In this document: in pieces, positions 10,701 through 42,975 of the stretch
Position numbering within the stretch: position 1 is the stretch's first letter
Layout of the letters: each line of letters opens with the position of its first letter
Notes under the pieces: model-generated
What the model was told of the DNA's origin: nothing
Seen by the model: only the letters and a program-made list of their open reading frames with translations
The model's database searches: none
Source of the DNA: Flavobacterium marginilacus
Lineage (GTDB): Bacteria > Bacteroidota > Bacteroidia > Flavobacteriales > Flavobacteriaceae
Assembly: GCF_026870155.1 (NCBI RefSeq)
Contig: NZ_CP113975.1
Coordinates: 1,922,001-1,986,000 of the forward strand
Length of the DNA stretch: 64,000 bases
Direction: 5' to 3'
Made by a program: the position numbers and the translations under genes

Positions 10701-10781
10701 ACTAATTATGACAAAGGTATTGATAGAGGAAACTATCCGCAGCCAAAATCGGTGTTACTAGGACTTGAAATTTCATTTTAA
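7734..10781 (+). CDS. SusC/RagA-family TonB-linked outer-membrane transporter (pair 1)
   Basis: Outer-membrane barrel of 1015 residues that imports large ligands with its SusD partner, using energy from TonB-ExbBD. A signal peptide (1-23, ending AVFSQ) is followed by a carboxypeptidase-regulatory-like domain (about 25-105, INGVVSDKSGLPLSGVSV). The plug domain has the SusC signature around LYVVDGV, SPNDIESVSVLKDASTAALYGSRG and NGVVIVTTKKGK. The rest is beta-strand rich and ends in LLGLEISF with a terminal Phe, as barrels usually do. A second ATG at 7746 is an alternative start. The SusD gene follows after 15 bp. HTCS control is inferred from the neighbour. Confidence 0.96.
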   Translation: MKLKMKFAIIALLFFCAQAVFSQSKTINGVVSDKSGLPLSGVSVSVQGKSSSAITDFDGKYVINNVESDNKLVFAYIGMISQVVAVGSNSSINITMQDASQDLKEVVVVAYGVQKRGNVTGAISTVSSKDIAALPITNAESALQGRAAGVTVINNGSPGSTPEVSIRGLGSPNNNSPLYVVDGVIVGNLSSISPNDIESVSVLKDASTAALYGSRGSNGVVIVTTKKGKSGVGQLSFNTYTGFQKVGKTYDLLNSEQYQQYAKDWGVTINRPADFLKNNVNYLDEIFTTGAMQDYNLSYSSGTDHSTNRFSAEYLKQDGVIVDSGYERYTFRANNTQKIEKLRLTVGSNMGLSFGKQNPERISGGRTLIEHAIKAAPYLPVYNSTNLGGFQGPSNAADGQDAENPVRVQSLGYTINKTLGITGNIFAEFEIVKDLKFRSQVSLDYYDLDNRNFIPSYDDDSVPNGSTHSAAYSATTRVYGSGQTIMFNNSLSYKKTIAEKHNFDAVILVENNKSKGEQVNAGSRYSISDEIDQLNSATVTALSSTSFEDYRVGYVGRLNYNYDEKYLFAVSGRRDASSRFGSNYRWANFYSVAGGWNIAKENFLQNTQVSTLKLRASYGTTGNDEIGRYAYSAALVGNLIYPIAGNAAVGTTAGSLASPDLHWESKTMKNIGLDFGFLNDKITGSFEIYDNRSDDLLLNLPVAPSIGSFSGSQPKNVGSVSTKGFEVVLGYNDNEGDFRWSANFNLGTSKNEVLDLGGIDKIAGGTAFRAGGDAISQTTVGDPLFYFYGLVADGIYKNQAEVDAVFTATPGQTTVKPGDIRFKDLNGDGNITSADRTKIGNPLPDITYGMNFNATYKQFDFNFFITGVQGNDIFNTNRYDLEGMAKLFNAGTAVLDRSIVANGVVTNPDSTIPRLNGAVQNTAVSSRFVEDGSFARLKNISIGYTLPSNISKYFSKLRVYASGQNLVTITDYSGLDPEIGNGNSSIIGGTNYDKGIDRGNYPQPKSVLLGLEISF

Positions 10782-10796
10782 TAAAATAAAACAAAC

Positions 10797-12622: not shown

Positions 12623-13207
12623 TTGCCCAAAAATAAAATTATCAGAAAAAATAGATTCTTGAAATACTTTAAAAAAATAGCTGTCTTTTTTTTGCTCCTG
12701 ACATTTTTCTATAATGTTTTAGGAGTATATGTGTTGGTTACTGCTCAGAAAGAGCAGACATGGGTGGCATCTATGGAAAATGCAGATGATTCTAAATTTC
12801 AGATAATTGAATTGAATATTAATCCTTATGCATATGTTGTAGATTCTGGTTTTGAAGAAGTAAATGAGGATATAATAATCGATCACACAGTGTATCATGT
12901 TTTTAAAAACAGAATACAAAATAATGTTTTAAAATTATATTGTTTAAAAAATACCCATCAGGCTGCTGTAAATAAAAAGTTAAGGGATCTTGTAGATAAT
13001 CAGTTAATCGACACAAATTCAAATAAAGAAAATCCAGCAAAAAAACTTTTAAAATCATTTGAAAAAGATTATATCTCAAATGATGCTGCTGTTTATGAAT
13101 TCAATTCTGAATTTATCCCTGATTCAATATCATTTTCGTTTGTTTTTAAAAACGATTTATTAGATGGGTTTTTTACTTCCCATTATCCCCCTCCAAATGT
13201 GGCTTAG
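12623..13207 (+). CDS. Hypothetical membrane-anchored protein, TTG start
   Basis: Unrecognised protein of 194 residues. The frame has a stop at 12593 and no ATG before residue 48, so the start is taken as the TTG at 12623, giving MPKNKIIRKNRF. A basic head is followed by one hydrophobic helix (about 20-40, KIAVFFLLLTFFYNVLGVYV). The remaining ~150 residues are polar and would be outside the inner membrane. The protein ends in HYPPPNVA, a proline-rich tail. I have seen similar tails in small Bacteroidota proteins next to TonB-dependent receptors, but assign no function. It sits alone between the SusCD 1 terminator and the haloperoxidase gene. A weak AT hairpin (13228-13247) follows it. Confidence 0.7.
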   Translation: MPKNKIIRKNRFLKYFKKIAVFFLLLTFFYNVLGVYVLVTAQKEQTWVASMENADDSKFQIIELNINPYAYVVDSGFEEVNEDIIIDHTVYHVFKNRIQNNVLKLYCLKNTHQAAVNKKLRDLVDNQLIDTNSNKENPAKKLLKSFEKDYISNDAAVYEFNSEFIPDSISFSFVFKNDLLDGFFTSHYPPPNVA

Positions 13208-13315: not shown

Positions 13316-13343
13316 TTTTTCAATAATAAGCTTTATTGAAAAA
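13316..13343. promoter_or_regulatory. Hairpin/palindrome in the haloperoxidase leader
   Basis: TTTTTCAATAA and TTATTGAAAAA form a perfect 11-bp inverted repeat around a 6-base centre with AAGCTT. It ends 38 bp before the start codon at 13382. It could be an operator, an mRNA leader hairpin or a terminator with a symmetric T tract for the gene upstream. The sequence alone does not decide. Confidence 0.45.
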
Positions 13344-13381
13344 CAAATCATCTATTATCAACCACATTTAAAACTATTAAA

Positions 13382-14863
13382 ATGAAGAATTCTTTTTCTT
13401 ACTATATAATTGTTCTATTGCTTGTTTTCACTTCTAGTTTATATTCCTTTAATCCGGAAAAAAATATAAAAACACTTCCAGAACCTCTTGGTAAAGATAA
13501 CATGGCCTATAGATGGGGGCAGATGGCAATACAGGCAACAGCAAATGATACCGAAAAATTCAGACCAAGACCCACAGTAACTTCCCGTCTTTTGGGACTT
13601 ACTTTTGTTGCCATTTTTGATGCATGGAGCCGTTATGATAAAGCTGCAGTTCCTGTATATTTAACTGATACTGCAAGAAGACCTGATGAAGAACAAATCC
13701 TTAAAAATAAAGAGATCGCAATTAGTTACGCCGCTTATAATGCATTATGTGAGTATTTTTATTCAGACAAAGCATTATTTGCATCTTTTATGACTGAATT
13801 AGGATTTGACCCAAATAACAAGTCGCTTGATCCGTCAACTCCAGAAGGAATTGGCAATTTAGCTGCAAAGGCAGTAATTGAAGCCAGAAGACATGACGGG
13901 TCAAATCAATATGGAGATGAAAGCGGTTCAAACGGAACTCCTTATTTTAATTATGTTAATTATAAGCCAGTTAATTCTCCAGATGTAATGGTTGATATTA
14001 ACCGCTGGCAGCCAAAATATTTCTCTGATGGTAAGGGAGGTAAATTTTCACCAAACTGTCTGACTCCTTTTTGGAACAAAGTAAAACCAGTAGGAATGCT
14101 GTCAGGCGATCAGTTTCGTCCGGTTCCTCCGCCGTTAGTTGGTTCAGAGCAGCTTAAGAATGAAGTAAAAGATCTTATTGACCTGCAGAATAATCTAACA
14201 GATGAACAAAAGGCATTAGTAGAATTTATGCGTGACGGCCCAAAATCGGTGCAGCAGGCAGGACACTGGTTAAAATTTGCTCAAGTTGTTTCAATACGTG
14301 ATAATCATACATTAGATCAGGATGTAAAAATGTATTTTTTAAATCAGGTAACAGCTATGGACTGTTTTATAGCCTGCTGGGATGCAAAAATGTTTTATGA
14401 TTTTGCCCGTCCTTATGCTCTTGTTCATTATTATTTTAAAGACCAGACTATAAAAGCCTGGGGTGGTCCAGATGTTGGCTACAAAGAAATGAAAGGACAG
14501 GAATGGAGACCTTATTCTCCGGATACTTTTTTATGTCCTCCTTTTCCAGGTTACGTTTCGGGACATAGCACCATAAGCGGCGGCTGTGCCGAAGCATTAA
14601 AATTATGGACAGGCAGTGATACTTTTGGCGATTCTGCAACTTGCATTCCGGGAGCAATGACTGAGCCAAATAACATTGGAAAACCTGTAGTTCTAAAATT
14701 CCCAACTTTTACTGAAACAGCTGAAATGGCAGGTATCTCAAGGGTAATGGGCGGTTATCATATTCAGGCTGATAATTTGGAAGGTCTGAAACTTGGCAGA
14801 AATGTAGCCCATGAGGTTTGGAAGTTTTATAATATTCATATTGGAAATAAAATAGTTGACTAA
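13382..14863 (+). CDS. Secreted vanadium-dependent haloperoxidase-like protein (PAP2 superfamily)
   Basis: A 493-residue protein with an N-terminal signal peptide (SYYIIVLLLVFTSSLYSF). The PAP2/vanadium-haloperoxidase active site is complete: Lys336 and Arg343 (DAKMFYDFARPY), Ser393-Gly394-His395 (PGYVSGHST), Arg454 and His460 (SRVMGGYH). The Lys-Arg spacing of 7 and Arg-His spacing of 6 equal those of the Curvularia chloroperoxidase (K353/R360 and R490/H496). The family either oxidises halides with hydrogen peroxide or acts as an acid phosphatase, and the residues do not separate the two. It heads a run of same-strand genes: two FG-GAP lipoproteins follow after 61 and 23 bp. No lipobox, so it is probably periplasmic or exported. 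Confidence 0.9.
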   Translation: MKNSFSYYIIVLLLVFTSSLYSFNPEKNIKTLPEPLGKDNMAYRWGQMAIQATANDTEKFRPRPTVTSRLLGLTFVAIFDAWSRYDKAAVPVYLTDTARRPDEEQILKNKEIAISYAAYNALCEYFYSDKALFASFMTELGFDPNNKSLDPSTPEGIGNLAAKAVIEARRHDGSNQYGDESGSNGTPYFNYVNYKPVNSPDVMVDINRWQPKYFSDGKGGKFSPNCLTPFWNKVKPVGMLSGDQFRPVPPPLVGSEQLKNEVKDLIDLQNNLTDEQKALVEFMRDGPKSVQQAGHWLKFAQVVSIRDNHTLDQDVKMYFLNQVTAMDCFIACWDAKMFYDFARPYALVHYYFKDQTIKAWGGPDVGYKEMKGQEWRPYSPDTFLCPPFPGYVSGHSTISGGCAEALKLWTGSDTFGDSATCIPGAMTEPNNIGKPVVLKFPTFTETAEMAGISRVMGGYHIQADNLEGLKLGRNVAHEVWKFYNIHIGNKIVD

Positions 14864-14924
14864 AAAGAGAGCTTTTATTTTTAGTAAACTCGAAATTTCG
14901 TTTTAAGATTAAAAAATTAAAAAT

Positions 14925-17132
14925 ATGAAAATAAAACTGTTATTGCTGTTATCCGCAGTATCCTTATTGATGCAGTCTTGTGACTTTTTTTCTAATCCAA
15001 ATGACAAAATGGTTAAGGTCTTGGAAGCTAGAAGCAAGATGTATGATGTAAAAGACAATGTTTTTTCTCCAAAAGCAGAGATTGTTTTTTATGATTCAAT
15101 CATTTTAAATTCATCTTATGGTCATTTTAAACTGCTGTATGAATTAAAGAAAGGGGAAAGTCTGCTGAAATTAGGGGATGAATATGATGCCGTAAAAATA
15201 TTTGAGACGATGTCAAACTCACCAATAGTAAGCGGTGCTGAAAAATTTGAGATTTCCAAAAAATTAGCAATTGCCTACATGCGGCTTGGCGAGCGTCAAA
15301 ACTGCTTAAAATCCCACGTTTCAGAATCGTGTATCATGCCGATAGTAAAAGCTGGAATTCATGAAAAACAATTAGGATCGCAAAAAGCTATAGAGGTTTA
15401 TAAAAAGCTCTTAATCAATGATCCTGGAGATTATGAATCACAATGGCTGCTCAATATTGCTTATATGACACTGGGCGGTTATCCGCTAAAGGTTCCAAGC
15501 CAATGGCTGATACCAAATCTGGACAAAGATAATTCAGGATATTCCATAAAACCTTTTACTGACATAGTTTCGAATTTGGGCATAGTGAAAAAAAACATGG
15601 CTGGAGGCGTTATTTTGGATGATTTTAATAATGATGATTATTTGGATATAATGACATCTGATTGGAGTCTGGACGGGGTTATGCAATATTATCAGAATAA
15701 TAAAAAAGGGGGATTTACTAATTTATCTAAACAATCTGAGATAGGACGGTTCAAAGGCGGACTAAACATGATTCAGGCTGATTATGATAATGACGGTGAT
15801 ACCGATTTATTTGTTTTAAGAGGAGCCTGGATGAATGTTTACGGAGTACAGCCCAATTCATTACTGCGTAATAATGGAGACGGCACTTTTACAGATGTAA
15901 CTGTAAAAAGCGGTTTGTACTCAGAATTACCAACTCAAGCCGGAACTTGGAATGATTTTAATAATGATGGTTATCTGGATTTGTTTATAGGGAATGAATC
16001 AAGGCCTCAGGATAATTTTCCCTGCGAATTGTATATAAACAATCAGGACGGAACATTTACAAATGCTGCCAAAAAAGCAAATTGTGAAATAGTCACTTTT
16101 GTAAAAGGAGTAACTTCTAGTGATTATGACAATGATGGAAGAATTGATCTGTTTTTGTCCGGGATGAATAATCGAAAAACATTATTGAAAAATATGGGTT
16201 CCAAAAACGGCATTCCGCAATTTATGGATGTGACCGAAAAAGCAGGACTGGCTAAGCTTAATGTCATGACTTTTCCAACTTGGTTCTGGGATTATGATAA
16301 TGATGGCTGGCAGGATCTTTTCGTATGCGGTTATCAGTTTGAAGGTTCTATTGCAGGAACGGTTGCCAAAGAGGCATTAAATATTCCGAACGAAGGCAGT
16401 AAAATGTATTTGTATCATAATAATCACAATGGTACTTTTTCGGATGTTTCAAAAGCAGCCGGGCTGGATAAGAGTGTCTTTGCAATGGGGTCAAATTTTG
16501 GGGATATTGATAATGACGGATTTTTGGATATGTATCTTGGTACCGGTAATCCAGATTATAAATCGCTTATTCCAAATAAATTATTCAGGAATATGGGAAA
16601 TGGCAAATTTGCTGATGTTACTGTTTCCGGGCGTGTAGGAAATCTGCAGAAAGGTCATGCTGTTGGTTTTAGCGATATGGACAATGATGGAGATTCCGAT
16701 ATTTTTATAGAAGTTGGCGGGGCTTATATCGGCGATTCTTATACCAATTCCTTTTATCTTAACCCAGGTCAAAACACAAACCGCTGGATTGGTATTCAGC
16801 TCGAAGGAACTGACACTAACAAATCGGCAATTGGCTCAAGAATTAAGCTTAGTTTCAAAGAAAAAGGTGTTTCCCGAAATGTTTATCTCGAAATAAACTC
16901 AGGAGGCAGTTTTGGTTCATCGGCTTTAAGAAAAGAAATAGGAATCGGGCAGGCATCAGTAATTGATCAAATAGAAATTACTTGGGCGAAGAGCCATAAA
17001 AAACAATTTTTTAAAAATGTTAAACCCAATCAGTTTATTAAAATAAAAGAAGGGGATGAAGAATTTGTGAAAACGAATATTAAAAAGATTGTTTTTCCGA
17101 CTGCCAAAATGAAATCTGCAATTTGTATTTAA
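14925..17132 (+). CDS. FG-GAP/VCBS repeat lipoprotein with ASPIC/UnbV domain (CRTAC1-like) 1
   Basis: Lipoprotein of 735 residues (lipobox LMQSC, Cys19). After a helical, TPR-like region (about 60-190) come seven FG-GAP-type blades with calcium-loop motifs DxDxDG or DxNNDG (for example DYDNDGDTDLFV, DFNNDGYLDLFI, DIDNDGFLDMYL), forming a predicted beta-propeller. An ASPIC/UnbV domain ends the protein (NRWIGIQLEG, SAIGSRIKL, RKEIGIGQ). Such proteins are thought to bind ligands or partners outside the cell; no enzyme function is implied. It sits between the haloperoxidase-like gene and a larger relative. The next ORF could overlap its end, but the better start there is 23 bp after this stop. 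Confidence 0.88.
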   Translation: MKIKLLLLLSAVSLLMQSCDFFSNPNDKMVKVLEARSKMYDVKDNVFSPKAEIVFYDSIILNSSYGHFKLLYELKKGESLLKLGDEYDAVKIFETMSNSPIVSGAEKFEISKKLAIAYMRLGERQNCLKSHVSESCIMPIVKAGIHEKQLGSQKAIEVYKKLLINDPGDYESQWLLNIAYMTLGGYPLKVPSQWLIPNLDKDNSGYSIKPFTDIVSNLGIVKKNMAGGVILDDFNNDDYLDIMTSDWSLDGVMQYYQNNKKGGFTNLSKQSEIGRFKGGLNMIQADYDNDGDTDLFVLRGAWMNVYGVQPNSLLRNNGDGTFTDVTVKSGLYSELPTQAGTWNDFNNDGYLDLFIGNESRPQDNFPCELYINNQDGTFTNAAKKANCEIVTFVKGVTSSDYDNDGRIDLFLSGMNNRKTLLKNMGSKNGIPQFMDVTEKAGLAKLNVMTFPTWFWDYDNDGWQDLFVCGYQFEGSIAGTVAKEALNIPNEGSKMYLYHNNHNGTFSDVSKAAGLDKSVFAMGSNFGDIDNDGFLDMYLGTGNPDYKSLIPNKLFRNMGNGKFADVTVSGRVGNLQKGHAVGFSDMDNDGDSDIFIEVGGAYIGDSYTNSFYLNPGQNTNRWIGIQLEGTDTNKSAIGSRIKLSFKEKGVSRNVYLEINSGGSFGSSALRKEIGIGQASVIDQIEITWAKSHKKQFFKNVKPNQFIKIKEGDEEFVKTNIKKIVFPTAKMKSAICI

Positions 17133-17155
17133 AGAAATTTATTAAAATTTTAAAA

Positions 17156-20100
17156 ATGAAAATTATAAAAATAAGAACTGTTTTTTTTAGCATTACATGC
17201 TTATTACTGCTTGTTAGGTGCTCCACAAAAGAATCAGAAAAAAAGATATTTACTGCTTTAGAACCTTCAGACACTGGAATTGATTTTAGCAACAATCTCA
17301 CAGAAAATGATTCTCTGAATTATTTTACCTATTCATACATTTATATGGGCGGGGGAGTTGCTGCTGGAGATGTCAATAATGATGGATTGACAGACATTTT
17401 TTTTACTGGAAACCAAGTGTCTAATAAGCTGTATTTAAACAAAGGAAACCTTAAGTTCGAAGATGTTACCAAAAAAGCAAAAGTAGGAGGAGATTCCAGA
17501 TGGTACACCGGAGCTACGATGGCCGATGTTAACGGGGACGGTTTCCTAGATATTTATTGCAGTGTAGGAGGAAAATTTGGTCCCCGAAACAATGAACTGT
17601 ATATCAATAACGGGAACGGCACTTTTACCGAAAGAGCCAAAGAATATGGCATCGATGATGCCGGAAACAGTGTACAGGGCACTTTCTTTGATTATGATAA
17701 AGACGGAGATTTAGATTTATATGTAGCCAATTACCCGCCTACTAAGTTTAATATACCAACATTTGTTTACGTACAGCTGATGCGGAATGTAAAAGATGAT
17801 GAATCCGGACATTTGTATAGAAATGACGGAAATCATTTTACCAATGTGACCAATGAAGCGGGAGTGAGAGCATACGGCTTGTCATTAAGCGGTACTATCG
17901 GGGATTTAAATAATGATACCTGGCCGGATATTTATGTGTCCAATGATTTCAATTCTCCTGATTTTATGTACATAAATAACCATGACGGCACTTTTAAAGA
18001 AGTTATAAAAGATGCTGCAAATCACACTTCTTTTTATGGAATGGGTGTGGATATCTCCGACTTCAACAACGATGGTTATTTAGATATTTTTCAGGTGGAT
18101 ATGGATGCCAAAGACAACCGTCGTAAAAAAGCAAATATGTCAAGCATGAATCCGCAGTTATACTGGGATATTGCTGATGCTAGATTTCAAATTCAGTACA
18201 TGCACAACTGTATGCAGATGAACACTGGAATTGTTGAAAACGGAATTCCGCAGTTTGAAAATGTTTCGCGTATTACAGGAACTTCTTCAACGGACTGGAG
18301 CTGGGGACCATTGTTTGCTGATTTTGACAATGACGGTAAAAAGGATTTGTTTGTTACCAATGGAACCAGAAGAGAAATAAATAATAATGATTTCTTTCAC
18401 AATATTGAAAGACAAAATTTGAAGCCTAAAGATTTACTAAAAGTTGCATTGGAAATTCCCAGCGAAAAAATCGACAATTTTATGTTCCAAAATAAAGGAA
18501 ACTTTAAATTTGAACAGGTTAATAAGCAATGGGGAATTGAGTTCAAAGGATTTTCTAACGGTGTTGCTTATGCTGATTTGGATAATGACGGAGATTTAGA
18601 AATTATCATAAATAATATAGATGATTACGCTTCAGTTTTTGAAAATACCAGTTCCGAAACCAATAATTATTTGAAGGTAAAGTTCAAAGGAAGTTCAAAA
18701 AACAATCAGGGATTAGGAAATCGTGTGTACATAAAAACAAATGGTGATGTTCAGATGCAGGAACTTACTCTGACACGCGGATTCCAGTCGTCTGTAGCTC
18801 CAGAACTGCATTTTGGAGTTAATAAATTAAAGACAATTGATGAAGTGAAAGTGGTTTGGACCAATGGAAAAGTTCAGAAATTATTCAATGTAAAAGCAAA
18901 TCAGACATTAACTTTCAAAGAACAGGATGCCAAAGAAGATACAGAAAAAACAGCTGTTTCAAAATCATTATTTACTACAGTAACATCCATTTTTCCAGTT
19001 TTTAAACACGAAGAAAATAAATATGATGATTTTAAAGATCAGGTTTTACTGCCACACAAGATGTCCACTTTTGGCCCTCCTATTGCTGTTGGCGATGTAA
19101 ATAAAGACGGATTAGACGATTATTTTATTGGCGGTTCATCTACTTTTTCAGGGAAACTGTTTTTGCAGACAGCCAATGGATTTGTGGAGAAAAAAACGGG
19201 AGCTTTTGAAGCAGATAAAAAAAGTGAAGATGCTGGAGCTGTTATTTTTGATGCGGACAATGACGGCGACAATGATTTATACGTTGTAAGCGGCGGTTAT
19301 GAATTTTTATTAAATGATCCCGCACTGCAGGACAGACTGTATATCAATAATGGCAAAGGTGATTTTACAAAGGCATCCAAAGAAGCACTGCCTGTAATGC
19401 TAACCAGCGGTTCCAAAGCATATCCTGTTGATTATGATAAAGACGGTAAACAAGATATTCTGGTTCTTGGCAGACAAGTACCTGGACAGTATCCTTCACC
19501 AGCAAATACTTATCTGCTGCATAATATAAGTACGGTCGGTCATGCACAATTTGAGATTTCAAAAAATGCTCCTAAAGAATTCAAAAATATTGGAATGGCA
19601 ACAAGTGCTGCTATAACTGATTATAATAATGATACTTTTCCAGATATAATAATTGTAGGTGAGTGGATGCCGATCCGTGTTTTCGAAAATGTAAAAAACG
19701 GATTCAAAGAAGTATCTGGTAATTTAGGCTTGTCAATAGATACCACTGGCTGGTGGTGGAGCATTCAGCAGGGGGATTTTGATAAGGATGGCGATATGGA
19801 TTATATCGTTGGTAACAATGGGCTTAACTATAAGTACAAAGCCACACCCGATGAGACTTTTGATATCTTCGTTAAGGATTTTGACAATGATAAGCATAAA
19901 GATATTGTATTGAGTTATTACAATGACGGTAAGCAATACCCTGTACGCGGCCGAGGCTGTTCTTCACAGCAGATTCCAAGCATAAAGAAAAAGTTCAAAA
20001 ATTATGAAAGTTTTTCTCAGGCAACGCTAGTTGATGTATATACAGAGAAATCACTTAAAGAGGCTCTGCATTATAAAGTGAAATCATTTGCAAGTGTATA

Positions 20101-20449
20101 CATGGAAAATAAAGACGGGAAATTTATTCTGCACGAACTTCCTGTTGAGGCACAGCTGTCCTGTATCAATCAGATTATAGTTGATGATTATGATAAAGAC
20201 GGCAGTCTAGATGCTTTGATTACCGGAAACATGTTTAATTCAGAGGTTGAAACTCCAAGGAATGACGCTGGTCATGGCTTATTTTTGAAAGGGAATGGCA
20301 AAGGTAAATTCAAGCCGGTTTCTATGGTGAAAAGTGGATTTTTTACTCCTGGAGATGTTAAAAACATGGAAGAAATAAAAGTAAAAGACAAAGGTTATTT
20401 CTTGGTCACTAAAAACAACTCGTATCTGCAGAGCATTAGAATTAACTAA
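17156..20449 (+). CDS. Large FG-GAP/VCBS repeat lipoprotein with internal ASPIC/UnbV domain 2
   Basis: 1097 residues from the ATG at 17156. I prefer this to the ATG at 17123, which would overlap the gene before it and put a charged stretch ahead of the signal peptide. The lipobox is LLVRC (Cys22), with an unusual Arg before Cys. Seven calcium-loop blades (DVNNDGLTDIFF, DYDKDGDLDLYVA, DFDNDGKKDLFVT and so on) precede an ASPIC/UnbV domain at about 510-600 (GNRVYIKT, LTLTRGFQSS, ELHFGV). Then seven more blades follow (DVNKDGLDDYFIGG, DADNDGDNDLYVV, DYDKDGSLDALITG). The result looks like two propellers joined by the UnbV domain. It forms a likely operon with the haloperoxidase-like and first FG-GAP genes. 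Confidence 0.88.
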   Translation: MKIIKIRTVFFSITCLLLLVRCSTKESEKKIFTALEPSDTGIDFSNNLTENDSLNYFTYSYIYMGGGVAAGDVNNDGLTDIFFTGNQVSNKLYLNKGNLKFEDVTKKAKVGGDSRWYTGATMADVNGDGFLDIYCSVGGKFGPRNNELYINNGNGTFTERAKEYGIDDAGNSVQGTFFDYDKDGDLDLYVANYPPTKFNIPTFVYVQLMRNVKDDESGHLYRNDGNHFTNVTNEAGVRAYGLSLSGTIGDLNNDTWPDIYVSNDFNSPDFMYINNHDGTFKEVIKDAANHTSFYGMGVDISDFNNDGYLDIFQVDMDAKDNRRKKANMSSMNPQLYWDIADARFQIQYMHNCMQMNTGIVENGIPQFENVSRITGTSSTDWSWGPLFADFDNDGKKDLFVTNGTRREINNNDFFHNIERQNLKPKDLLKVALEIPSEKIDNFMFQNKGNFKFEQVNKQWGIEFKGFSNGVAYADLDNDGDLEIIINNIDDYASVFENTSSETNNYLKVKFKGSSKNNQGLGNRVYIKTNGDVQMQELTLTRGFQSSVAPELHFGVNKLKTIDEVKVVWTNGKVQKLFNVKANQTLTFKEQDAKEDTEKTAVSKSLFTTVTSIFPVFKHEENKYDDFKDQVLLPHKMSTFGPPIAVGDVNKDGLDDYFIGGSSTFSGKLFLQTANGFVEKKTGAFEADKKSEDAGAVIFDADNDGDNDLYVVSGGYEFLLNDPALQDRLYINNGKGDFTKASKEALPVMLTSGSKAYPVDYDKDGKQDILVLGRQVPGQYPSPANTYLLHNISTVGHAQFEISKNAPKEFKNIGMATSAAITDYNNDTFPDIIIVGEWMPIRVFENVKNGFKEVSGNLGLSIDTTGWWWSIQQGDFDKDGDMDYIVGNNGLNYKYKATPDETFDIFVKDFDNDKHKDIVLSYYNDGKQYPVRGRGCSSQQIPSIKKKFKNYESFSQATLVDVYTEKSLKEALHYKVKSFASVYMENKDGKFILHELPVEAQLSCINQIIVDDYDKDGSLDALITGNMFNSEVETPRNDAGHGLFLKGNGKGKFKPVSMVKSGFFTPGDVKNMEEIKVKDKGYFLVTKNNSYLQSIRIN

Positions 20450-20829
20450 TGTTTTTTAGAAAAAGTACCTATAACTGGGCGTTATGGCTCTAGAAATTAC
20501 TTCCCAATAAACTGTAACAGATTATTTTGGAAAGGATAATTTTAGAGCTGTACACTCAGAGTCTTTCTAACGTGATAAAAAAATCTAAAATTTCATTCTC
20601 AAATATTGTTTCATCAGTTTTTGAAAACAATCAAGGCGGGTATTTTATGAATTAGAAAAATCAATCCATCATTTATGTCTTATGGGACGAATCAGAATTT
20701 ATAAAAAACTGATTTGCAATTCTGTTTGGCAGTAATCAATACAAATATTTTGAGCTTTTTTATTGTAATGACTTTCTATAACTAAAATAGATATATCAAT
20801 ATTTATGCTCGTTCAAAATAAAACAAATC
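20450..20829. other. Gap between the FG-GAP lipoprotein 2 and the OM-barrel gene
   Basis: 380 bp, AT-rich. I see no ORF, no clear terminator and no clean TAnnTTTG motif. It splits the module into two possible transcription units (13.4-20.4 kb and 20.8-27.3 kb). Confidence 0.5.
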
Positions 20830-22035
20830 ATGAAAAAAATTGATTCATTTTATACCGCATTCATTTTTATAATATTCATTTTAACTGCTTTTCAAACAGA
20901 AATAATTACTGCTCAGGGCTGTGTGGCAGTCCGGCAGATGGGCGGGCTTTATATGAATTCTGCCAGTTCTTATAATTTAGACAAAGGCGAATTTCAAGTA
21001 GGAACAAATTACCGTTATTTTCATTCCTGGAGGCATTTTATAGGTAAAGAAGAACAATTGGAGCGTCAGACGACAGGCGGCGGACATGATGCAAATGGAG
21101 TAGAGCAGGGCAATGCCGTAAACATTTATTCACATGCTGTAGATTTTAATTTTTCTTATGGAATAAGCAATAGAATCCAGATAAATGCCACTTTGCCTTA
21201 TGTACACAATGAGCGCTCTCAGGTGCTGAGACAAACAAGCCCTGTAAAAGATACTATAAGGTACAGCGTTTATGCCCAGGGTTTTGCAGATGCAAGGCTT
21301 AGTGTAAATTACTGGTTTTTTGATCCAAAAACGGCTCATAAGGGAAATGTAATGTTAGGACTGGGATTAAAATTAAATACAGGAAGCCATGAGGAAATGG
21401 ATGAAGCACCACAAGCTGACGGAACAACAAAAAGTGTGATAATGGATCAGGCTATTCAGCCAGGTGATGGCGGAGTTGGAATTTCGGCTGAGGTTCAGGT
21501 ATTCAGACAATTAACAGGACGTCTTTACGGATTTGCAAATGGATATTATTTATTCAATACAAAGGAATCAAACGGTACATTTAAATCAGCACCAAAAGCT
21601 GGTTTAGAAGGATATGAAATTTATGCCTGTCCCGACCAGTATTTTGCAAGAGCAGGATTATCTGCTGCAATTGATAAAAAAGAAAATTTTAATGTTTCGC
21701 TGGCAGGAAGAATCGAAGGTATTCCTGCATATGATGCTTTTGGAGGTCAGGTGGCCTACCGTCGTCCGGGATATGTTATAGCAGTAGAGTATGGTTTTTC
21801 ATATCACATAGGGAAGCACACTTTGAGTTTATTCATCCCTTATAACATCGTAAAAAATCGTATTCAGAGTGCTGCAGATATTGCCAGCCAGGATCTGCAG
21901 AATTCTGTAATCACTGATCCTGCCAAGTATGTTCATGTGCAGGGAGATGCCGCTTTCGCAGATTATTCTATAAATCTAGGATATTCCTATAGATTTAAAT
22001 TGGGTAAAAAAATGACCGTAATGATGCCTAAATAG
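20830..22035 (+). CDS. Outer-membrane beta-barrel-like protein
   Basis: A 401-residue protein with an N-terminal signal peptide (FIFIIFILTAFQTEIITAQG). The mature part alternates polar and aromatic/hydrophobic residues in strand-like segments (GEFQVGTNYRYFHSW, HAVDFNFSYGISNRIQINATLPYV, GNVMLGLGLKLNTGS, YVIAVEYGFSYHIG), as expected for a barrel of the MetA/phenol-degradation or generic transporter type. Two Gly-rich patches occur early (RQMGGLYM, TTGGGHDANG). I do not recognise a precise family. It lies 24 bp before a DoxX-like gene, with the second SusCD pair following, so it probably belongs to the same surface system. Confidence 0.72.
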   Translation: MKKIDSFYTAFIFIIFILTAFQTEIITAQGCVAVRQMGGLYMNSASSYNLDKGEFQVGTNYRYFHSWRHFIGKEEQLERQTTGGGHDANGVEQGNAVNIYSHAVDFNFSYGISNRIQINATLPYVHNERSQVLRQTSPVKDTIRYSVYAQGFADARLSVNYWFFDPKTAHKGNVMLGLGLKLNTGSHEEMDEAPQADGTTKSVIMDQAIQPGDGGVGISAEVQVFRQLTGRLYGFANGYYLFNTKESNGTFKSAPKAGLEGYEIYACPDQYFARAGLSAAIDKKENFNVSLAGRIEGIPAYDAFGGQVAYRRPGYVIAVEYGFSYHIGKHTLSLFIPYNIVKNRIQSAADIASQDLQNSVITDPAKYVHVQGDAAFADYSINLGYSYRFKLGKKMTVMMPK

Positions 22036-22059
22036 TTACTATTAAAAATTTTGAAACAG

Positions 22060-22581
22060 ATGAAAACTACTTTTAATTCTTTCTATTTTTTATTAAGTAA
22101 AAAAATGGAAAAACACAGTATTAACTTGATGCGTATTGCTCTTGCGATTGTCTATATCTGGTTTGGTGCTTTGAAAATCTTCGGATTGAGTCCGGCAGGT
22201 GACTTAGTAGAGAAAACCGTTTTTTGGTTCAGACCAGAAATTTTTATTCCGATTCTTGGAATATGTGAAGTCCTGATTGGATTTGGGTTATTGATAAAAA
22301 GAATGATTCCGCTGACAATAATTTTTTTATTAATGCATATGTCTGCAACCCTTTTTCCTTTTTTTATTTTAAAATCCAGCTGTTTTGACGGCTTCCCTTA
22401 TGAACCGACTTTGGTTGGCCAATACATTATCAAAAACATTGTTTTGGTTGCGGGAGCGCTCGTTATTGCGGGAAAATATAATGAAGATTATTATGCAGAA
22501 ATGAATTTTAAAAAAAGAATAAAAAATTCTGCAGCAAATGAAAACATTTCAACAAAGTATATTACCGATATAATAAAATGA
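22060..22581 (+). CDS. DoxX/DUF417-like integral membrane protein
   Basis: 173 residues from the ATG at 22060; an in-frame TTG at 22051 is less likely. Four hydrophobic helices are visible, starting with INLMRIALAIVYIWFGALKIFG and PEIFIPILGICEVLIGFGLLI, the pattern of DoxX or YkgB (DUF417) proteins. These are inner-membrane proteins linked in some bacteria to quinone or redox metabolism, but most are uncharacterised. A basic/acidic tail (about 145-173) is cytoplasmic or periplasmic. It sits 24 bp after the barrel gene and 53 bp before SusC 2. A redox role next to a haloperoxidase-like enzyme is an inference only. Confidence 0.75.
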   Translation: MKTTFNSFYFLLSKKMEKHSINLMRIALAIVYIWFGALKIFGLSPAGDLVEKTVFWFRPEIFIPILGICEVLIGFGLLIKRMIPLTIIFLLMHMSATLFPFFILKSSCFDGFPYEPTLVGQYIIKNIVLVAGALVIAGKYNEDYYAEMNFKKRIKNSAANENISTKYITDIIK

Positions 22582-22634
22582 TAATTACAATTAATCCCCA
22601 AATCAAATTTTAATTTTTAATCAAAATATACAAT

Positions 22635-25600
22635 ATGTTACGAGAAAAATATATAAAACTACTGTTCTGTTTTCTCTTTTTGCTTACTGCACAGTCGTAT
22701 GCGCAGCAGCAAAATTTGAAAGGGATAGTAGTAGATGCCAAAACGGATGTGGCATTGGGCGGAGTGACGGTTAAGTCGGATACTGAAGAAGTCACTGCCA
22801 ATGAAAATGGTGAATTCGTTATTCAAAATCCAAAATTACCAATTACATTAAAATTGAGTTATATCGGATATAAAACACAGAAAATTGTGGTTCAGTCTTT
22901 TGATTTATTAACAATAAAATTGATTAATGACTCCAGTCAATTAGATGAAGTCCTTATTTCAAGCGGGTATTTGACCCAAAAAAAATCGGAGTTTTCGGGT
23001 TCAGTATCAACAGTTTCAGCAAAACAACTGCAAAATAGACCTGCCTCCAGTTTCGATCAATTATTGGGAGGACAAGGAACAGGAATAGATGTTATTCAGT
23101 CTTCGGCTGTGCTCAACAACACGCCTGTTATCCGTGTCCGCGGTTTAAACACTATTACTTCAGGTCTTTTCCCTTTAATTGTTGTTGATGGAGTAGCCGT
23201 TTTTTCCGGTTCTTTGGGAGGGTTTATTGGGAATAATCCATTGGCAGCTATTAATCCAAATGACATACAGTCTATAGATGTTTTGAAAGATGCTTCGGCA
23301 GCAGCGATTTATGGCTCCAGAGCTACTAATGGAGTTATGGTGATTACTACCAAAAAAGGTAAAAAAGGAGCAACAAGATTTAATTATAATAGCTGGTACA
23401 GCAGAAGCACGCCTTATAATTTGCCCGAATTATTGAATGCCGAAGATTACACGGCCATAAAAAATGAAGCTTTGGTTAATGCAGGGAAAGCGCCAGGTTT
23501 TTTCCTGTCAAAAAATCCGGATGGAAGTACAGTAGACACAAGCTGGTATGATGTTGCCTATGAACCGGGTTTATCGAGTAATCATAATATAAATATCTCA
23601 GGAGCAAATGAATCAACACAGTATTATTTTTCGGCAGACTACAGCAATCAAAATAGTTTTATAAAAAACAATACGTTTCAAAACTATATGGCACGATTAA
23701 ACATTGGTCATGAAATTAATAAATACATTCGCGCTGGTGTTAATTTTTCTTATAGTAACGCCAAAAATGTAGGTCCAAATACTGGAGCCGTTGCTGGGAA
23801 CACTATGTCGGCTTCTACTTACAATACAGAATATATCACCAATGAACCTTTGGGAAGAATGACCTATGTTTTGCCTCCTAATGTTCCTGTTTACAAACCA
23901 GATGGTTCTTATAGCATTCAAAACGGAATAAGTGTGGGTTACGGAAACAATATTCCATCCATTATTGGAACTATCAATGCCTACAATCTTGCAATGGTAC
24001 AGGTTCTTGATTTAACAACTTCAGTGAGTAAATCCATTTTAGGAAATATCTACGGTGAGTTTGATATTTTGAAAAATTTGACTTTCAGAACTAGTTTTGG
24101 ATTGAACAATATTGGCGTTGAGAACAAATTATTTTTAAACCCAACCCACGGCGGCGGGTATGCCTATAATGGTGTAGCAACAAACATAGAAACCGATCTT
24201 CTAAGAACCGATTGGGTAAATACACTTACTTATAAAGCTTCTTTAAAAGAGAACCACAATTTTGTAATGCTTTTGGGTTATGAGCGCATCAAAACGACGG
24301 TGGATAGCTGGGGAGCTTCGCAAAGTAATATAACTGACCCTTATTATACCAATTATCAAGGGAGTTATGCCAATATATCTCCAATAGGGAATGTATTAAT
24401 GGAAAATGCCTTATTGTCTTATTTTACCAACCTAAACTACAATTACAAGAACAAATATTTTTTGAGTCTGAATTATAGAATCGATGGACTTTCCGCTTTA
24501 TCTGAGGGAAATAAATATGGCGATTTTGGAGGAGGAGCTTTGAGCTGGAATGTTTTTGAAGAGTCTTTCTATAAAAATTCCGGTATTACTAAATACATTG
24601 ATAAATTCAAAATCAGAACGAGTTACGGTATTGTTGGAAACAGTGAAATAGGCAATTATCCATCAATAGGAACTTATGATTCTTCTACTTATGCGGGGGC
24701 TCCTACATTGGGATATTCACAAACAGCCAATCCTAATTTAAAATGGGAAACCAGTTCAAAATTTGATTTAGGAATCAATTTTACACTTTTAAATAATCGT
24801 ATTTCAGTCGAAATGGATTATTACAAAAACACCATAAAAGATTTAATTCTTAAAGCACCGCAGTCTCTTTCGGCTGGAATTCCAAACAATTACATCAATG
24901 AAAATGTTGGGGGAATGTACAATACTGGTTATGAGTTGGGTGTAAATGCTCTTGTTGTCAGTTCAAAAGATTTTAGTTGGAACTTAAATTTAAATCTTTC
25001 GACACTCAAAAACGAGGTAACTTCTTTGGTAAATGATGTTTTTGTTCCCAGCGTATTTGGAGTTCAAAACATGACAAGGGTAGGGTACTCAGTAGGTTCT
25101 ATTTTCGCTGTTCCTTCTCATGGTGTAAATCCTGCTAATGGTCAGATGATTTTTGTAAACAGTGAAGGAAAGGAAGTTCAATACAATCATATTGGTTCTC
25201 CAAAATGGACTTATCTTGATGGATCAGCCGCTCCTGCTATAGACAATTACAAAGATGGAAAAATGCAGGGTTCGTCACTGCCTAAGGTTTTTGGCGGATT
25301 CAATAATACATTCAATTATAAGAATTTTGTTTTGGGAGTTAATTTGACTTTTTCAGAAGGAAATCAGCTCTACAATGGGACTAGAGCAACAATTTCGGAT
25401 CAGCGTTATTTTAACAACGGAACTTTTATCAAAAACAGATGGACAACACCCGGTCAGATTACCGATATTCAGAAATTGTATTACGGGGACAATGTTTCGG
25501 CTGGATTTTCATTTTCGAGTACTTCCAAAGTGGAAGATGGCTCTTATCTGAAATTCAAAAATGTTTCTTTGGGTTACAATGTACCAGTTAAAGAGACTTT

Positions 25601-25784
25601 CTTGAAAAATGCTTTTACTTCGGTCTATGTTTATCTGCAGGGAAATAACCTGTATACGTTTACCAAATATAGAGGTTCGGATCCAGAGGTTTCCATCAAC
25701 GGGAATTCTATCAATTCTGGTAAAGATCAAAACGTACCGCCCAATGCACAGGTTTATACAGTTGGTTTAAATGTTGGGTTTTAA
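22635..25784 (+). CDS. SusC/RagA-family TonB-linked outer-membrane transporter (pair 2)
   Basis: 1049-residue barrel with a signal peptide ending SYAQQQ, a carboxypeptidase-regulatory-like domain (LKGIVVDAKTDVALGGVTV, about 27-105) and a plug with the SusC signatures LIVVDGVAVF, NPNDIQSIDVLKDASAAAIYGSRA and GVMVITTKKGKKG. It ends in VYTVGLNVGF with terminal Phe. It diverges strongly from pair 1, so it probably binds a different ligand. SusD 2 starts 17 bp after its stop. It follows the DoxX-like gene by 53 bp on the same strand, which links it to the haloperoxidase/FG-GAP module. Confidence 0.96.
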   Translation: MLREKYIKLLFCFLFLLTAQSYAQQQNLKGIVVDAKTDVALGGVTVKSDTEEVTANENGEFVIQNPKLPITLKLSYIGYKTQKIVVQSFDLLTIKLINDSSQLDEVLISSGYLTQKKSEFSGSVSTVSAKQLQNRPASSFDQLLGGQGTGIDVIQSSAVLNNTPVIRVRGLNTITSGLFPLIVVDGVAVFSGSLGGFIGNNPLAAINPNDIQSIDVLKDASAAAIYGSRATNGVMVITTKKGKKGATRFNYNSWYSRSTPYNLPELLNAEDYTAIKNEALVNAGKAPGFFLSKNPDGSTVDTSWYDVAYEPGLSSNHNINISGANESTQYYFSADYSNQNSFIKNNTFQNYMARLNIGHEINKYIRAGVNFSYSNAKNVGPNTGAVAGNTMSASTYNTEYITNEPLGRMTYVLPPNVPVYKPDGSYSIQNGISVGYGNNIPSIIGTINAYNLAMVQVLDLTTSVSKSILGNIYGEFDILKNLTFRTSFGLNNIGVENKLFLNPTHGGGYAYNGVATNIETDLLRTDWVNTLTYKASLKENHNFVMLLGYERIKTTVDSWGASQSNITDPYYTNYQGSYANISPIGNVLMENALLSYFTNLNYNYKNKYFLSLNYRIDGLSALSEGNKYGDFGGGALSWNVFEESFYKNSGITKYIDKFKIRTSYGIVGNSEIGNYPSIGTYDSSTYAGAPTLGYSQTANPNLKWETSSKFDLGINFTLLNNRISVEMDYYKNTIKDLILKAPQSLSAGIPNNYINENVGGMYNTGYELGVNALVVSSKDFSWNLNLNLSTLKNEVTSLVNDVFVPSVFGVQNMTRVGYSVGSIFAVPSHGVNPANGQMIFVNSEGKEVQYNHIGSPKWTYLDGSAAPAIDNYKDGKMQGSSLPKVFGGFNNTFNYKNFVLGVNLTFSEGNQLYNGTRATISDQRYFNNGTFIKNRWTTPGQITDIQKLYYGDNVSAGFSFSSTSKVEDGSYLKFKNVSLGYNVPVKETFLKNAFTSVYVYLQGNNLYTFTKYRGSDPEVSINGNSINSGKDQNVPPNAQVYTVGLNVGF

Positions 25785-25801
25785 TTTTAAAAGTATACAA
25801 A

Positions 25802-27250
25802 ATGAAAAAATATATTCTAATCAGTTTGTTCTTTCTTGTGGCAATGACAGCCTGCAATGATGATATATTGGACACCGTTCCTGAGACAAGCATCCCAGAA
25901 GAAGCAGCATATAGTACACCTGGCAAAATTTTGGCACAGACCAATAATTTGTACAAACAGTTACAGAATCAAAATTATTACGGAGGAAGATTCATTATTT
26001 TTAATGAACAGAGAGCCGATCAGTTTGGGCAGAATGACGGTAATGCAGCAACAGGATCAGCTGTGTGGAATCAAAATGTGGCTTCGACAAATGATTTTGT
26101 AAACAATGTTTGGTCAGTTTGTTATACCGCTATAAATGCTTCTAATATTTTAATTAGCAAGCTGAACGGCACAACAGTAGTTTCAGAAGCATTGGCAAAA
26201 AACTACATAGCCGAAGCCAAATTCATCCGCGCTTTCTCTTACTTTAGTCTGATTCAGACGTATGCCAAACCATATAATTTGGACAAAAACGGATTGGGTT
26301 TACCATTGCGTCTGACGCCTATTACCACATCAGGGAACAATGATTTGGCGCGCAGTTCTATTGATGTTATTTATACCCAGATTCTAAAAGATTTGGATGA
26401 GGCCGAAATTGATCTTCCTATTGAATATACAACTCCGCTGTTAAATGTTTCCAGAGCCAAAAAAAGTACGGCAATAGCATTGAAAACCAGAGTGTATCTG
26501 GTGCAGGCCAATTATGATAAAGTGCTTGTGGAGTCTCAGAAAATTGTTTCCGCAACAGCTCCTTTTCAATATAAGGCTGGAAATTTAACGCATAAACTCG
26601 AAGCTAATTTTGCTGCAATTTTTGGAGGAAGTTATACGGGAACCGAAGCTGTTTTCAGTATCCCTTTTGCGAATACCACAACCGAAACTCCTGCTTCTCA
26701 GTATGCATTGGCATTTAACTATCTGGCACAGCCAATTATATTTTTGACAGCAGCTGGCATTTCAAGTGATCCGGCCTTGAATTCAAGTGACGATGCTCGT
26801 TCGGGTTTGATTGGTACCAATTCAGCAAATCAAAAAGTGCTGAAAAAATTCAGTATTACAACTGCTCCGTTTCGTGACTATGTGCCGGTGATTCGATATG
26901 CCGAAATTTTATTGAATTACGCTGAAGCTGCTGCCAATAAGAATGATTTAGCTGCTGCGACAGCTTTATTGAAAGCGGTTAGAAATAGATCTAATCCGAG
27001 TTATGTATTTTCAAATGCTGAGGTTGCTACCAAAGACGCATTATTGGCTTCGATATGGAAAGAAAGAGATATTGAACTTTTAGGCGAAGGTTTCAGACTA
27101 ATGGATTTGCAGAGAAGACTACAAACTTTGCCGGCCAAAAAAGGGTCTATTGGTACAGCTCCATTGGTTTTAGTATCAAGCAGCAATTATATCTGGCCAA
27201 TTCCTAGCGGCGAGATTTCAGCCAATAAATTGATGGTGCCTAATCCCTAA
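25802..27250 (+). CDS. SusD/RagB-family surface lipoprotein (pair 2)
   Basis: 482-residue ligand-binding partner of SusC 2. The lipobox ends at Cys18 (AMTACNDDILD), and Asp residues after Cys fit surface export. Family blocks visible are NNVWSVCYTAINASNILI, KNYIAEAKFIRAFSYFSLIQTYAKPY, VIRYAEILLNYAEAAA and ASIWKERDIELLGEGFRLMDLQRR. It ends close to the standard length with YIWPIPSGEISANKLMVPNP, the usual SusD C-terminus. The transcript probably ends at the hairpin at 27399-27434. Confidence 0.96.
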   Translation: MKKYILISLFFLVAMTACNDDILDTVPETSIPEEAAYSTPGKILAQTNNLYKQLQNQNYYGGRFIIFNEQRADQFGQNDGNAATGSAVWNQNVASTNDFVNNVWSVCYTAINASNILISKLNGTTVVSEALAKNYIAEAKFIRAFSYFSLIQTYAKPYNLDKNGLGLPLRLTPITTSGNNDLARSSIDVIYTQILKDLDEAEIDLPIEYTTPLLNVSRAKKSTAIALKTRVYLVQANYDKVLVESQKIVSATAPFQYKAGNLTHKLEANFAAIFGGSYTGTEAVFSIPFANTTTETPASQYALAFNYLAQPIIFLTAAGISSDPALNSSDDARSGLIGTNSANQKVLKKFSITTAPFRDYVPVIRYAEILLNYAEAAANKNDLAAATALLKAVRNRSNPSYVFSNAEVATKDALLASIWKERDIELLGEGFRLMDLQRRLQTLPAKKGSIGTAPLVLVSSSNYIWPIPSGEISANKLMVPNP

Positions 27251-27398
27251 AAGATATAATAAAACTTAAATTAAATTGAAATCTATAAAATCAGCCATTA
27301 ATTAATAAAGAAGTATTGGAGGAAAAGAATCAGTAGTTTGGGCTGTTTTATATATGTAAATGATATAAAATAGTTGTCTTTACTTTAAAGAAGTGTAA

Positions 27399-27434
27399 GC
27401 CTGGCAGTTATTTTTTCTGCTGGGCTTTGCTTTT
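27399..27434 (+). terminator. Probable terminator after SusCD pair 2
   Basis: GCCTGGCAG and CTGCTGGGC form a 9-bp stem with two G-T pairs and a 9-base T-rich loop. TTTGCTTTT follows. It lies about 150 bp after the SusD 2 stop. Confidence 0.55.
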
Positions 27435-31638: not shown

Positions 31639-31788
31639 TTGAGTTTCTAAGTTACTAAGTTTCTGAGCTTCTAAGTTTTTGATTATTCATGTCTTAGTGA
31701 CTTGGAAAATCAAAAACTCAGAATTTTTGCTTATGTTTTTAAATCTTAGCGACTTGGAAACTTAGCGACTCAGAAACTTAAAAAAAAT
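31639..31788. repeat. Imperfect palindrome filling the peroxiredoxin-thioredoxin gap
   Basis: The left arm (GAGTTTCTAAGTTACTAAG...) and right arm (reverse complement AAGTTTCTGAGTCGCTAAG...) are diverged copies of an 11-base AAGTTTCTGAG-like phrase, repeated several times in each. ATCAAAAACTC and GAGTTTTTGAT-like blocks add an inner stem. It occupies the whole 155-bp gap and would fold in the operon mRNA. Confidence 0.65.
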
Positions 31789-34155: not shown

Positions 34156-34156
34156 A

Positions 34157-42709: not shown

Positions 42710-42975
42710 AATACATATTTTAAAAAATGACACGTCAAAAGTTCTTCCCAAATTTTTTGATAAATATTTTTCTTTTAAACAACTGCAATTTATATAAATA
42801 ACAACTTATATCAGTATAATAGAACCAAAATTGGATAGATTGTACTCCTTTGGAACAAAAACTAAAAAACTATATAGTTATTGTTTTTATTAGAAATTAT
42901 CATGCAGACTTTTAATATGTTAACTTTTTGAACTTATTTAATTGGTTTTGTTATGAAATACAAAAGCTCCTAATC

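Follow-up and report, generated by a model that had tools for sequence, protein, structure and literature searches.

A haloperoxidase-like enzyme and a pair of UnbV proteins set among SusC/SusD genes in a xylan-type locus of Flavobacterium marginilacus

Results

Organisation of the locus

The window analysed here is a stretch of 64,000 nucleotides from Flavobacterium marginilacus (contig NZ_CP113975.1), and its element of interest is a run of genes that places a haloperoxidase-like enzyme and two FG-GAP/UnbV proteins, FG1 and FG2, among SusC and SusD genes. An earlier reading of the letters alone (the original prediction) had delimited seven same-strand genes at 13316–27434 and proposed that they form one system. 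The gene count and the six gaps that it gave were confirmed from the open reading frames (ORFs). Seven ORFs, all on the + strand, span 13382–27250 and encode the exported haloperoxidase-like enzyme (13382–14863), FG1 (14925–17132), FG2 (17156–20449), a 401-residue outer-membrane barrel-like protein of no named family (20830–22035), a DUF417-type (RclC-like) inner-membrane protein (22051–22581), SusC (22635–25784; TIGR04056, 683 bits) and SusD (25802–27250; SusD_RagB and SusD-like_3). The enzyme and FG1 are separated by 61 base pairs (bp), FG2 and the barrel gene by 380 bp, the DUF417 gene and SusC by 53 bp and SusC and SusD by 17 bp. The other two gaps hold from ATG starts: FG1 and FG2 lie 23 bp apart if FG2 starts at the ATG at 17156, its mechanical TTG start at 17123 overlapping FG1, and the barrel and DUF417 genes lie 24 bp apart from an ATG that stands 9 bases past the mechanical TTG at 22051, or 15 bp apart from the TTG itself. 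The predicted identities of the PAP2/haloperoxidase-like enzyme, the two FG-GAP/UnbV proteins and the SusC/SusD pair are borne out by Pfam and NCBIfam matches above cut-off.

The boundaries of this block mislead; it was cut out of a hemicellulose locus. A further SusC (7734–10781; TIGR04056, 841 bits) and SusD (10797–12293; SusD_RagB, 134 bits) lie upstream, outside the original coordinates, and are followed by a small unannotated protein, UP194 (12623–13207; the start, at 12623 or 12659, is uncertain). Further 5′ we identified a hybrid two-component regulator (2723–6976) with Reg_prop, Y_Y_Y, HisKA, receiver and AraC-type helix-turn-helix domains in Pfam, a glycoside hydrolase (GH) of family GH43 (1442–2467; PF04616, 101 bits) and a major facilitator superfamily (MFS) sugar:cation symporter (72–1415; Pfam MFS_2, 254.9 bits). 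All of these are on the + strand, and GH67 and GH10 genes are located just before the window start (stretch L140). The same-strand unit begins by 7734 at the latest, and probably at the regulator at 2723. With two adjacent SusC/SusD pairs (7734–12293 and 22635–27250), linked carbohydrate-active enzymes (GH67, GH10 and GH43) and a hybrid regulator directly upstream, the locus carries the hallmarks of a polysaccharide utilisation locus (PUL), and, taken with the flanks of its relatives, it looks like a glucuronoarabinoxylan locus. The statement that the block has no carbohydrate-active enzyme holds within 13316–27434 only, given the GH43 gene at 1442–2467 and the GH10 and GH67 genes just outside the window; the step from there to a non-sugar locus is an artefact of the chosen boundaries. 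A single full-length match exists in the home genome for each of four proteins (haloperoxidase, FG2, UP194 and barrel), and all of these matches fall inside this stretch.

The haloperoxidase-like enzyme

The enzyme matches DUF6851 (193.7 bits), VCPO_2nd (47.6 bits) and PAP2 (29.1 bits), each above cut-off, and its sequence makes export likely. The residues of the vanadate/phosphate site follow one another as K336, R343, S393, G394, H395, R454 and H460, and all seven are unchanged in 86 of 86 clustered homologues. We take this order of K, R, S-G-H, R and H to be the vanadate-site motif of vanadium-dependent haloperoxidases. With the enzyme as query, five PDB sequences pass E ≤ 0.001, every one of them bearing the name haloperoxidase or NapH; by sequence, these matches and the VCPO_2nd domain place it nearer the haloperoxidases than the acid phosphatases.

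The best PDB matches, extending over ~420 residues, are NapH1 and NapH3 (3w35, 8cxl) and the entries 9ptr and 9l8x; however, in all four, other residues align to the SGH histidine of the window's enzyme. NapH enzymes belong to natural-product pathways. The Zobellia vanadium iodoperoxidase ZgVIPO1 (4cit, E 1.8e-22), which is also from Flavobacteriaceae, aligns at the SGH and SR-x5-H motifs, but overall identity is low, and nothing in the alignment corresponds to the stretch ahead of the conserved GHW, presumably the place of the halide-site tyrosine. The vanadate, halide, H2O2 and target of the enzyme are inferred.

FG1, FG2 and single-chain fusions

FG1 and FG2 (~1100 residues) both score above cut-off for FG-GAP_3 and UnbV_ASPIC (PF07593, 40.7 and 74.9 bits, respectively, with a cut-off of 23.4; FG-GAP_3, 258 bits in FG2). 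They contain 6 and 11 DxDxDG-type motifs, respectively, and both are likely lipoproteins, with an LMQSC lipobox identified by eye in FG1. The sole PDB match of FG1, which is of the CRTAC1 type, was cartilage acidic protein 1 (9etn, E 2.9e-7). This protein shares the FG-GAP repeats and UnbV domain with FG1 and FG2, which, unlike it, are bacterial and encoded within a SusC/SusD locus.

The same domains occur joined in one protein. In another Flavobacterium genome (G416), a single 1364-residue ORF with no internal stop (L285:6367–10458) encodes six FG-GAP_3 stretches, UnbV, DUF6851, VCPO_2nd and a type IX secretion tail. The K-x6-RP, SGH and SR-x5-H motifs are all present, and genes of GH43, GH78 and GH2 adjoin it. 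A search that used the haloperoxidase part of this protein as query, limited to proteins of ~750–2390 residues, returned 5524 matches; among the 120 listed, 116 combine PF07593 (UnbV) and PF22778 (VCPO_2nd) in one chain. Named carriers among the matches listed include Tamlana, Mariniflexile, Wenyingzhuangia, Flavivirga, Polaribacter and Leeuwenhoekiella. Single-chain FG-GAP/UnbV and haloperoxidase proteins, many of them with a type IX secretion tail, were seen among the listed matches P0241–P0360.

By their domain content, the fusions are a large Flavobacteriaceae family filed under repeat-based names such as “FG-GAP-like repeat-containing protein”. They have the FG-GAP, UnbV, DUF6851 and VCPO_2nd domains of FG1, FG2 and the enzyme in one chain, often with the secretion tail, whereas in the window these are separate genes of a SusC/SusD locus. 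Because of the type IX secretion tail, the fused version is expected to be located outside the cell. Such a fusion is strong evidence, at the level of sequence, that the UnbV propeller and the haloperoxidase would act together. We know of no functional study of these fusions, although the literature was not searched by this architecture.

A conserved core in Flavobacterium sugar loci

Our scan with the enzyme covered the best 80 of 143 loci, 17 from Flavobacterium and 63 from other genera. All 17 Flavobacterium loci contain SusC, SusD, UP194, the haloperoxidase, FG1 and FG2 on one strand and in this order. The genes after FG2 vary: the barrel gene is present in 7 loci, the DUF417 gene in 11, a second PAP2/haloperoxidase-like enzyme (VHPO2) in 5 and the downstream SusC in 11. 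The barrel, DUF417 and SusC genes occur together in 6 of the 17 (L002, L003, L004, L008, L015 and L017). The SusD of the downstream pair often falls past the end of the fetched stretch, and one genome, G343, has the full tail. Homologues of the regulator were listed 5′ of SusC in 14 of the 17 loci; none is shown in L011, L016 and L017, the first of which is too short to hold one. Those of G343 and G174 are 60% identical to the window's regulator.

The flanks of nine relatives, read piecewise, place the core among sugar genes every time. In G174, GH127, GH43, GH3, two GH43 genes with carbohydrate-binding module family 6 (CBM6), GH97, the regulator, the core, SusC/SusD and GH2 lie together; in G343, the symporter and regulator are 5′ of the core, and the barrel, DUF417, SusC/SusD and GH3 genes are 3′ of it. 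Around the core in the other seven (G400, G397, G398, G406, G409, G402 and G405) we found GH43, GH3, GH127, GH97, GH95, GH115, GH31, GH8 and GH9 genes and esterases, most of these labels being sequence matches to Pfam-typed proteins. The claim that this is not an ordinary sugar locus finds no support in the xylan-type setting of the block here and in all nine relatives with flanks read, or in the company of its divergent version (GH65, trehalase, GH100-like and PfkB genes).

A divergent version in Flavobacterium and in other families

We searched 150 Flavobacterium genomes with the enzyme, FG2 and UP194. An orthologue of the enzyme is present in six, and the same six carry an FG2 orthologue and an adjacent UP194. 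Any match to the enzyme was found in 28 genomes and an FG2-type match (E < 1e-50) also in 28, with an overlap of 26; G416 and G513 have the enzyme match without FG2, and G532 and G458 the reverse. Strong UP194 matches (E < 1e-25) occur in 23 of the 150, all within the 28 FG2-type genomes.

Among the 22 FG2 carriers without an enzyme orthologue, 19 encode 0.6–1.1 kb from the FG2 match a ~450-residue enzyme of the same superfamily (VHPO3), which over 347 residues shares 23% identity with the enzyme of the window. The other three (G414, G532 and G458) have no VHPO3-type match listed on their FG2 contigs. The order SusC-SusD-FG2-FG2-VHPO3 on one strand was found in 16 of 16 fetched Flavobacterium genomes, with one FG2 gene interrupted by stops and one locus ending at a contig edge. 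With one member of each typed, the neighbours of this divergent version are GH65, MFS, GH100-like, PfkB, trehalase and GH13 proteins; a GyrI-like protein scored below cut-off.

Outside Flavobacteriaceae, seven UP194 loci contain a well-matched VHPO3. In four of these, SusC-SusD-FG2-FG2 is located upstream of VHPO3 (G383, G150 and G292, of one family, and G122, of another), with GH65 and UP194, plus a small opposite-strand gene, between FG2 and VHPO3. That run is not upstream of VHPO3 in G033, G300 and G126. A further genome, G007, contains SusC/SusD-FG2-FG2-GH65-like-UP194, yet is without VHPO3. The two gene types were also searched for separately in these eight genomes: a same-strand FG2-type gene lies within 1 kb of 9 of 20 VHPO3-type genes (0.08 expected), and an FG2-type gene lies within 6.5 kb of 14 of 20 (0.22 expected), where the expectation assumes random placement and the genomes had been picked for UP194 or barrel.

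The original prediction had named a comparison of neighbourhoods as its check. Conservation of haloperoxidase, UnbV pair and SusC/SusD in other genera and families was indeed found. The core is complete in 17 of 17 Flavobacterium loci; in most loci outside the genus, a close orthologue of the enzyme is present but these partner genes are missing.

UP194, the barrel and the DUF417 protein

UP194 has an N-terminal helix and a PPP tail near the C-terminus. It belongs to the same family as the protein d2 of other genera (hhalign 99.1%; hmmsearch E 8e-20 to 3e-25), which is phylum-wide, being present in 69 of 395 Bacteroidota genomes. UP194 was called in 58 of 60 stretches fetched around further matches. 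The gene after it has a TonB/SusC-type profile match in 22 and is an unlabelled ORF of 660–830 residues in 20, of which the two typed are TonB receptors; in the remainder it is a barrel gene of the C25 type (7), VHPO3 (1), the enzyme (1), FG1 (2) or another gene (5). Because of these varied next genes, we regard UP194 as a general leader of envelope modules that is not peroxidase-specific. Its structure model is weak (mean predicted local distance difference test score (pLDDT) 64.9; predicted template-modelling score (pTM) 0.35) and insufficient for a fold search. In L182, L230 and L234, UP194 precedes a gene for a ~185-residue protein, a large ORF of receptor-like type and one of MFS size; as typed in L230 only, the ~185-residue protein is AhpD-like and the last ORF is of the aromatic-acid type.

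The 401-residue protein, predicted to be an outer-membrane barrel, has no Pfam or NCBIfam match, and its AlphaFold2 model is multi-stranded and barrel-like at modest confidence (mean pLDDT 66.5, pTM 0.69). It occurs in 34 of 395 Bacteroidota genomes, strongly in 31. Among 28 fetched non-Flavobacterium barrel loci, a same-strand UP194 lies within five genes in 18, and the stretch contains a PAP2/haloperoxidase-like gene in 16. All 18 loci with UP194 are in the “same class” group, and the remaining 10 (2 from the same family and 8 sharing the phylum only) have neither UP194 nor a PAP2/haloperoxidase-like gene in the stretch. A short same-strand match to a barrel fragment near UP194 (G218:C4:213106-213207) is possibly a decayed barrel gene. 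We also considered a decayed VHPO2 or C25 gene within the 380-bp gap between FG2 and the barrel gene, and rejected it, as tblastn matched the ends of FG2 and the barrel gene only.

The gene originally read as DoxX is better described as DUF417-type (PF04224, 37.4 bits, cut-off 27); its DoxX score of 20.7 bits is under the cut-off of 23.6. We rejected RclC, a membrane protein of reactive chlorine resistance, as its identity: the two share the broad DUF417 family, but the NCBIfam RclC score is 34.9 bits against an equivalog cut-off of 275. Confluentibacter has DUF417, C25 and VHPO2 genes after the enzyme, or, in L080, a protein with weak MauG-like matches (L080:11915-13402) in the place of VHPO2, between the DUF417 and barrel genes.

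Discussion

A proposed peroxidase cassette within a PUL

We give a probability of about one half to the reading that the window holds a cassette built into a PUL, where UnbV propellers and an exported peroxidase of the vanadate type, encoded beside SusC/SusD, would set peroxide chemistry beside glycan capture. That the haloperoxidase, the UnbV pair and SusC/SusD are one system receives strong support from sequence comparison, on the basis of the divergent SusC/SusD-UnbV-UnbV-haloperoxidase-like runs in other genomes and families and the natural UnbV-haloperoxidase fusions. This part of the original claim stands; the exact seven-gene block, whose barrel, DUF417 and SusC genes occur together in 6 of 17 loci, is not the conserved unit. 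The recurrence of the gene set beside sugar-import genes in several Bacteroidota families suggests that these bacteria may couple sugar capture to peroxide chemistry.

In such a cassette, the SusC/SusD pairs would import xylan-derived oligosaccharides under the control of the hybrid regulator, and FG1 and FG2 would occupy the place of surface glycan-binding proteins and bring enzyme and substrate together. The enzyme may be periplasmic or secreted here and lipid-anchored or secreted by the type IX system in relatives; a regular expression applied to mechanical start codons found a lipobox-like motif in 7 of 7 VHPO3, 18 of 28 VHPO2 and, among sequences of the type to which the window's enzyme belongs, 44 of 81. 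It would bind vanadate and make hypohalous acid from H2O2 and halide. The oxidant could attack phenolic groups of lignin-bound xylan; alternatively, the enzyme could consume peroxide from the plant or from competitors. The DUF417 and barrel proteins might help to move or tolerate the oxidant.

Several observations weigh against this proposal. The site residues are common to PAP2 phosphatases, so peroxidase activity remains a prediction; no H2O2-producing enzyme was recognised within the block; and hypohalous acid set free in the periplasm would endanger the cell. The lipobox is absent from all 17 Flavobacterium copies of the enzyme, which have a signal-like start by eye. These 17 loci are a single inherited arrangement, not 17 events. 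The 63 non-Flavobacterium loci hold a close orthologue, 67–74% identical, and partners are rare among them (SusC-like 10, FG2-like 6, DUF417-like 4, SusD 3, barrel 2, UP194 1, FG1 1). Likewise, 6 of the 20 VHPO3-type genes have no FG2-type gene inside 6.5 kb, and G513 carries a VHPO3-type gene with no FG2, SusC or UP194 match in 18 kb. GH43 is plentiful, with 10–36 matches per genome in 17 genomes; a single GH neighbour is consequently weak evidence, and the argument rests on the recurring arrangement.

A wider version of the proposal is possible, if distinctly tentative: a dedicated “oxidative PUL” in several Bacteroidota families, in which UnbV propellers would deliver or anchor vanadium haloperoxidases at the glycan surface. 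It would exist either as neighbouring genes with SusC/SusD or as single type IX-secreted fusions, and would link the capture of glycans to halogen chemistry directed at plant or algal cell walls or at competitors.

Alternative explanations

The most serious competitor, which we nevertheless hold to be doubtful, is that the enzyme is a PAP2-superfamily phosphatase. It would remove phosphate, or a comparable ester group, from sugars once captured, with no part played by vanadate or halide. Phosphatases use the same K/R/SGH/R/H residue set, and a VHPO2-type paralogue matches a haloperoxidase (8.8e-17) as well as bacterial acid phosphatases (7f17, E 4.8e-10; PhoN, ~1e-3). Sugar loci may also supply phosphorylated substrates, and the divergent version has PfkB and GH65 genes. 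The window's enzyme itself, however, matches only haloperoxidase-type PDB sequences at the threshold used and has the DUF6851 plus VCPO_2nd architecture, and xylan is normally unphosphorylated.

It is improbable, in our view, that the locus is a composite of a xylan SusC/SusD locus and a separate stress module (UP194, enzyme, barrel and DUF417) acting as a peroxide or halogen shield, the two being mutual passengers since one Flavobacterium ancestor. Recurrence of the divergent run of SusC/SusD, UnbV pair and haloperoxidase-like enzyme in other families argues against separate modules, as do the relatives listed for the L285 protein, 116 of 120 of which unite UnbV and haloperoxidase in one chain. 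A composite would nevertheless account for the solitary enzyme orthologue of most non-Flavobacterium loci, for the variable segment from FG2 to the downstream genes, for the runs of UP194-C25-VHPO2 with no SusC/SusD in the stretch shown (L220, L222, L225–L227 and L231) and for L223, in which SusC is only on the opposite strand.

Capture and processing of a non-sugar or modified ligand, with SusC/SusD pairs that do not serve glycans, was the reading first proposed and is very unlikely: such pairs can import non-glycan ligands and 13316–27434 itself is without a carbohydrate-active enzyme, but the GH-rich setting of the block, both here and in each of the nine relatives with flanks read, speaks against it, as do the GH65/trehalase/GH13 neighbourhood of the divergent version and the GH43, GH78 and GH2 genes beside the L285 fusion.

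Relation to known systems

The PUL-embedded cassette can be compared with the FjDexUL PUL of F. johnsoniae, (PMC10316084), which likewise groups GH genes with a regulator, SusC, SusD and the lipoproteins next to SusD. Here, by contrast, UnbV/FG-GAP proteins take the SusE/F-type position, and the haloperoxidase-like enzyme, UP194, barrel and DUF417 proteins are built in; the main text of that paper does not contain the words FG-GAP, VCBS or haloperoxidase. In PMC5064120, glucose oxidase and haloperoxidase are proposed for iodine uptake by Arenibacter, whose genome is given at least five homologues of the Zobellia iodoperoxidase, of the PAP2 type, along with 39 SusD proteins; the passages concerned draw no link between them. 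PMC9296495 reports a vanadium iodoperoxidase induced on a brown alga, with no link to SusC/SusD in the passages concerned, and a forest-soil survey (PMC4926216) describes the key enzymes and groups of soil halogen cycling as largely unknown. A word search of PMC8626586 gave no matches. In the open-licence PMC literature we found no published description of the union of haloperoxidase, UnbV and SusC/SusD, the fusion architecture not having been a search subject.

PULs, haloperoxidases and UnbV proteins are known singly, and the fusions sit in databases under names drawn from their repeats. “VCBS repeat” and “vanadium-dependent haloperoxidase” proteins are annotated side by side in Bacteroidota genomes, and the adjacency may be visible in annotations though unstudied. 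The accepted view of PULs is one of hydrolytic machines. Conservation of a haloperoxidase cassette with SusC/SusD in several families would, if true, extend bacterial glycan use by a step that depends on peroxide, and would place the UnbV/FG-GAP proteins and the unannotated UP194 family in a setting open to test. For soil halogen cycling, a haloperoxidase linked to xylan offers a concrete candidate, and “oxidative PULs”, if real, could be an unrecognised source of natural organohalogens in soil and freshwater.

Other features of the window

Scans for regulatory signals in the window gave counts near expectation: promoter-like sites showed no clear excess over shuffles (74 found; mean 62.7, standard deviation 8.0), nor did terminators (7 found; shuffle mean 9.0), and the Bacteroidota-type promoter motif was no commoner than chance (8 found, 6.0 expected). 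The next large ORF 3′ of the block, on the opposite strand (27699–29807), encodes a DUF255/DsbH-like protein; its homologues in relatives lie close by and in most cases share the strand of the core. A few kilobases downstream, on the other strand, are genes for a 1-Cys-type peroxiredoxin (31788–32426) and a GH3 enzyme (32548–34179). A Flavo-1 RNA was identified at 42973–43046 (52.3 bits).

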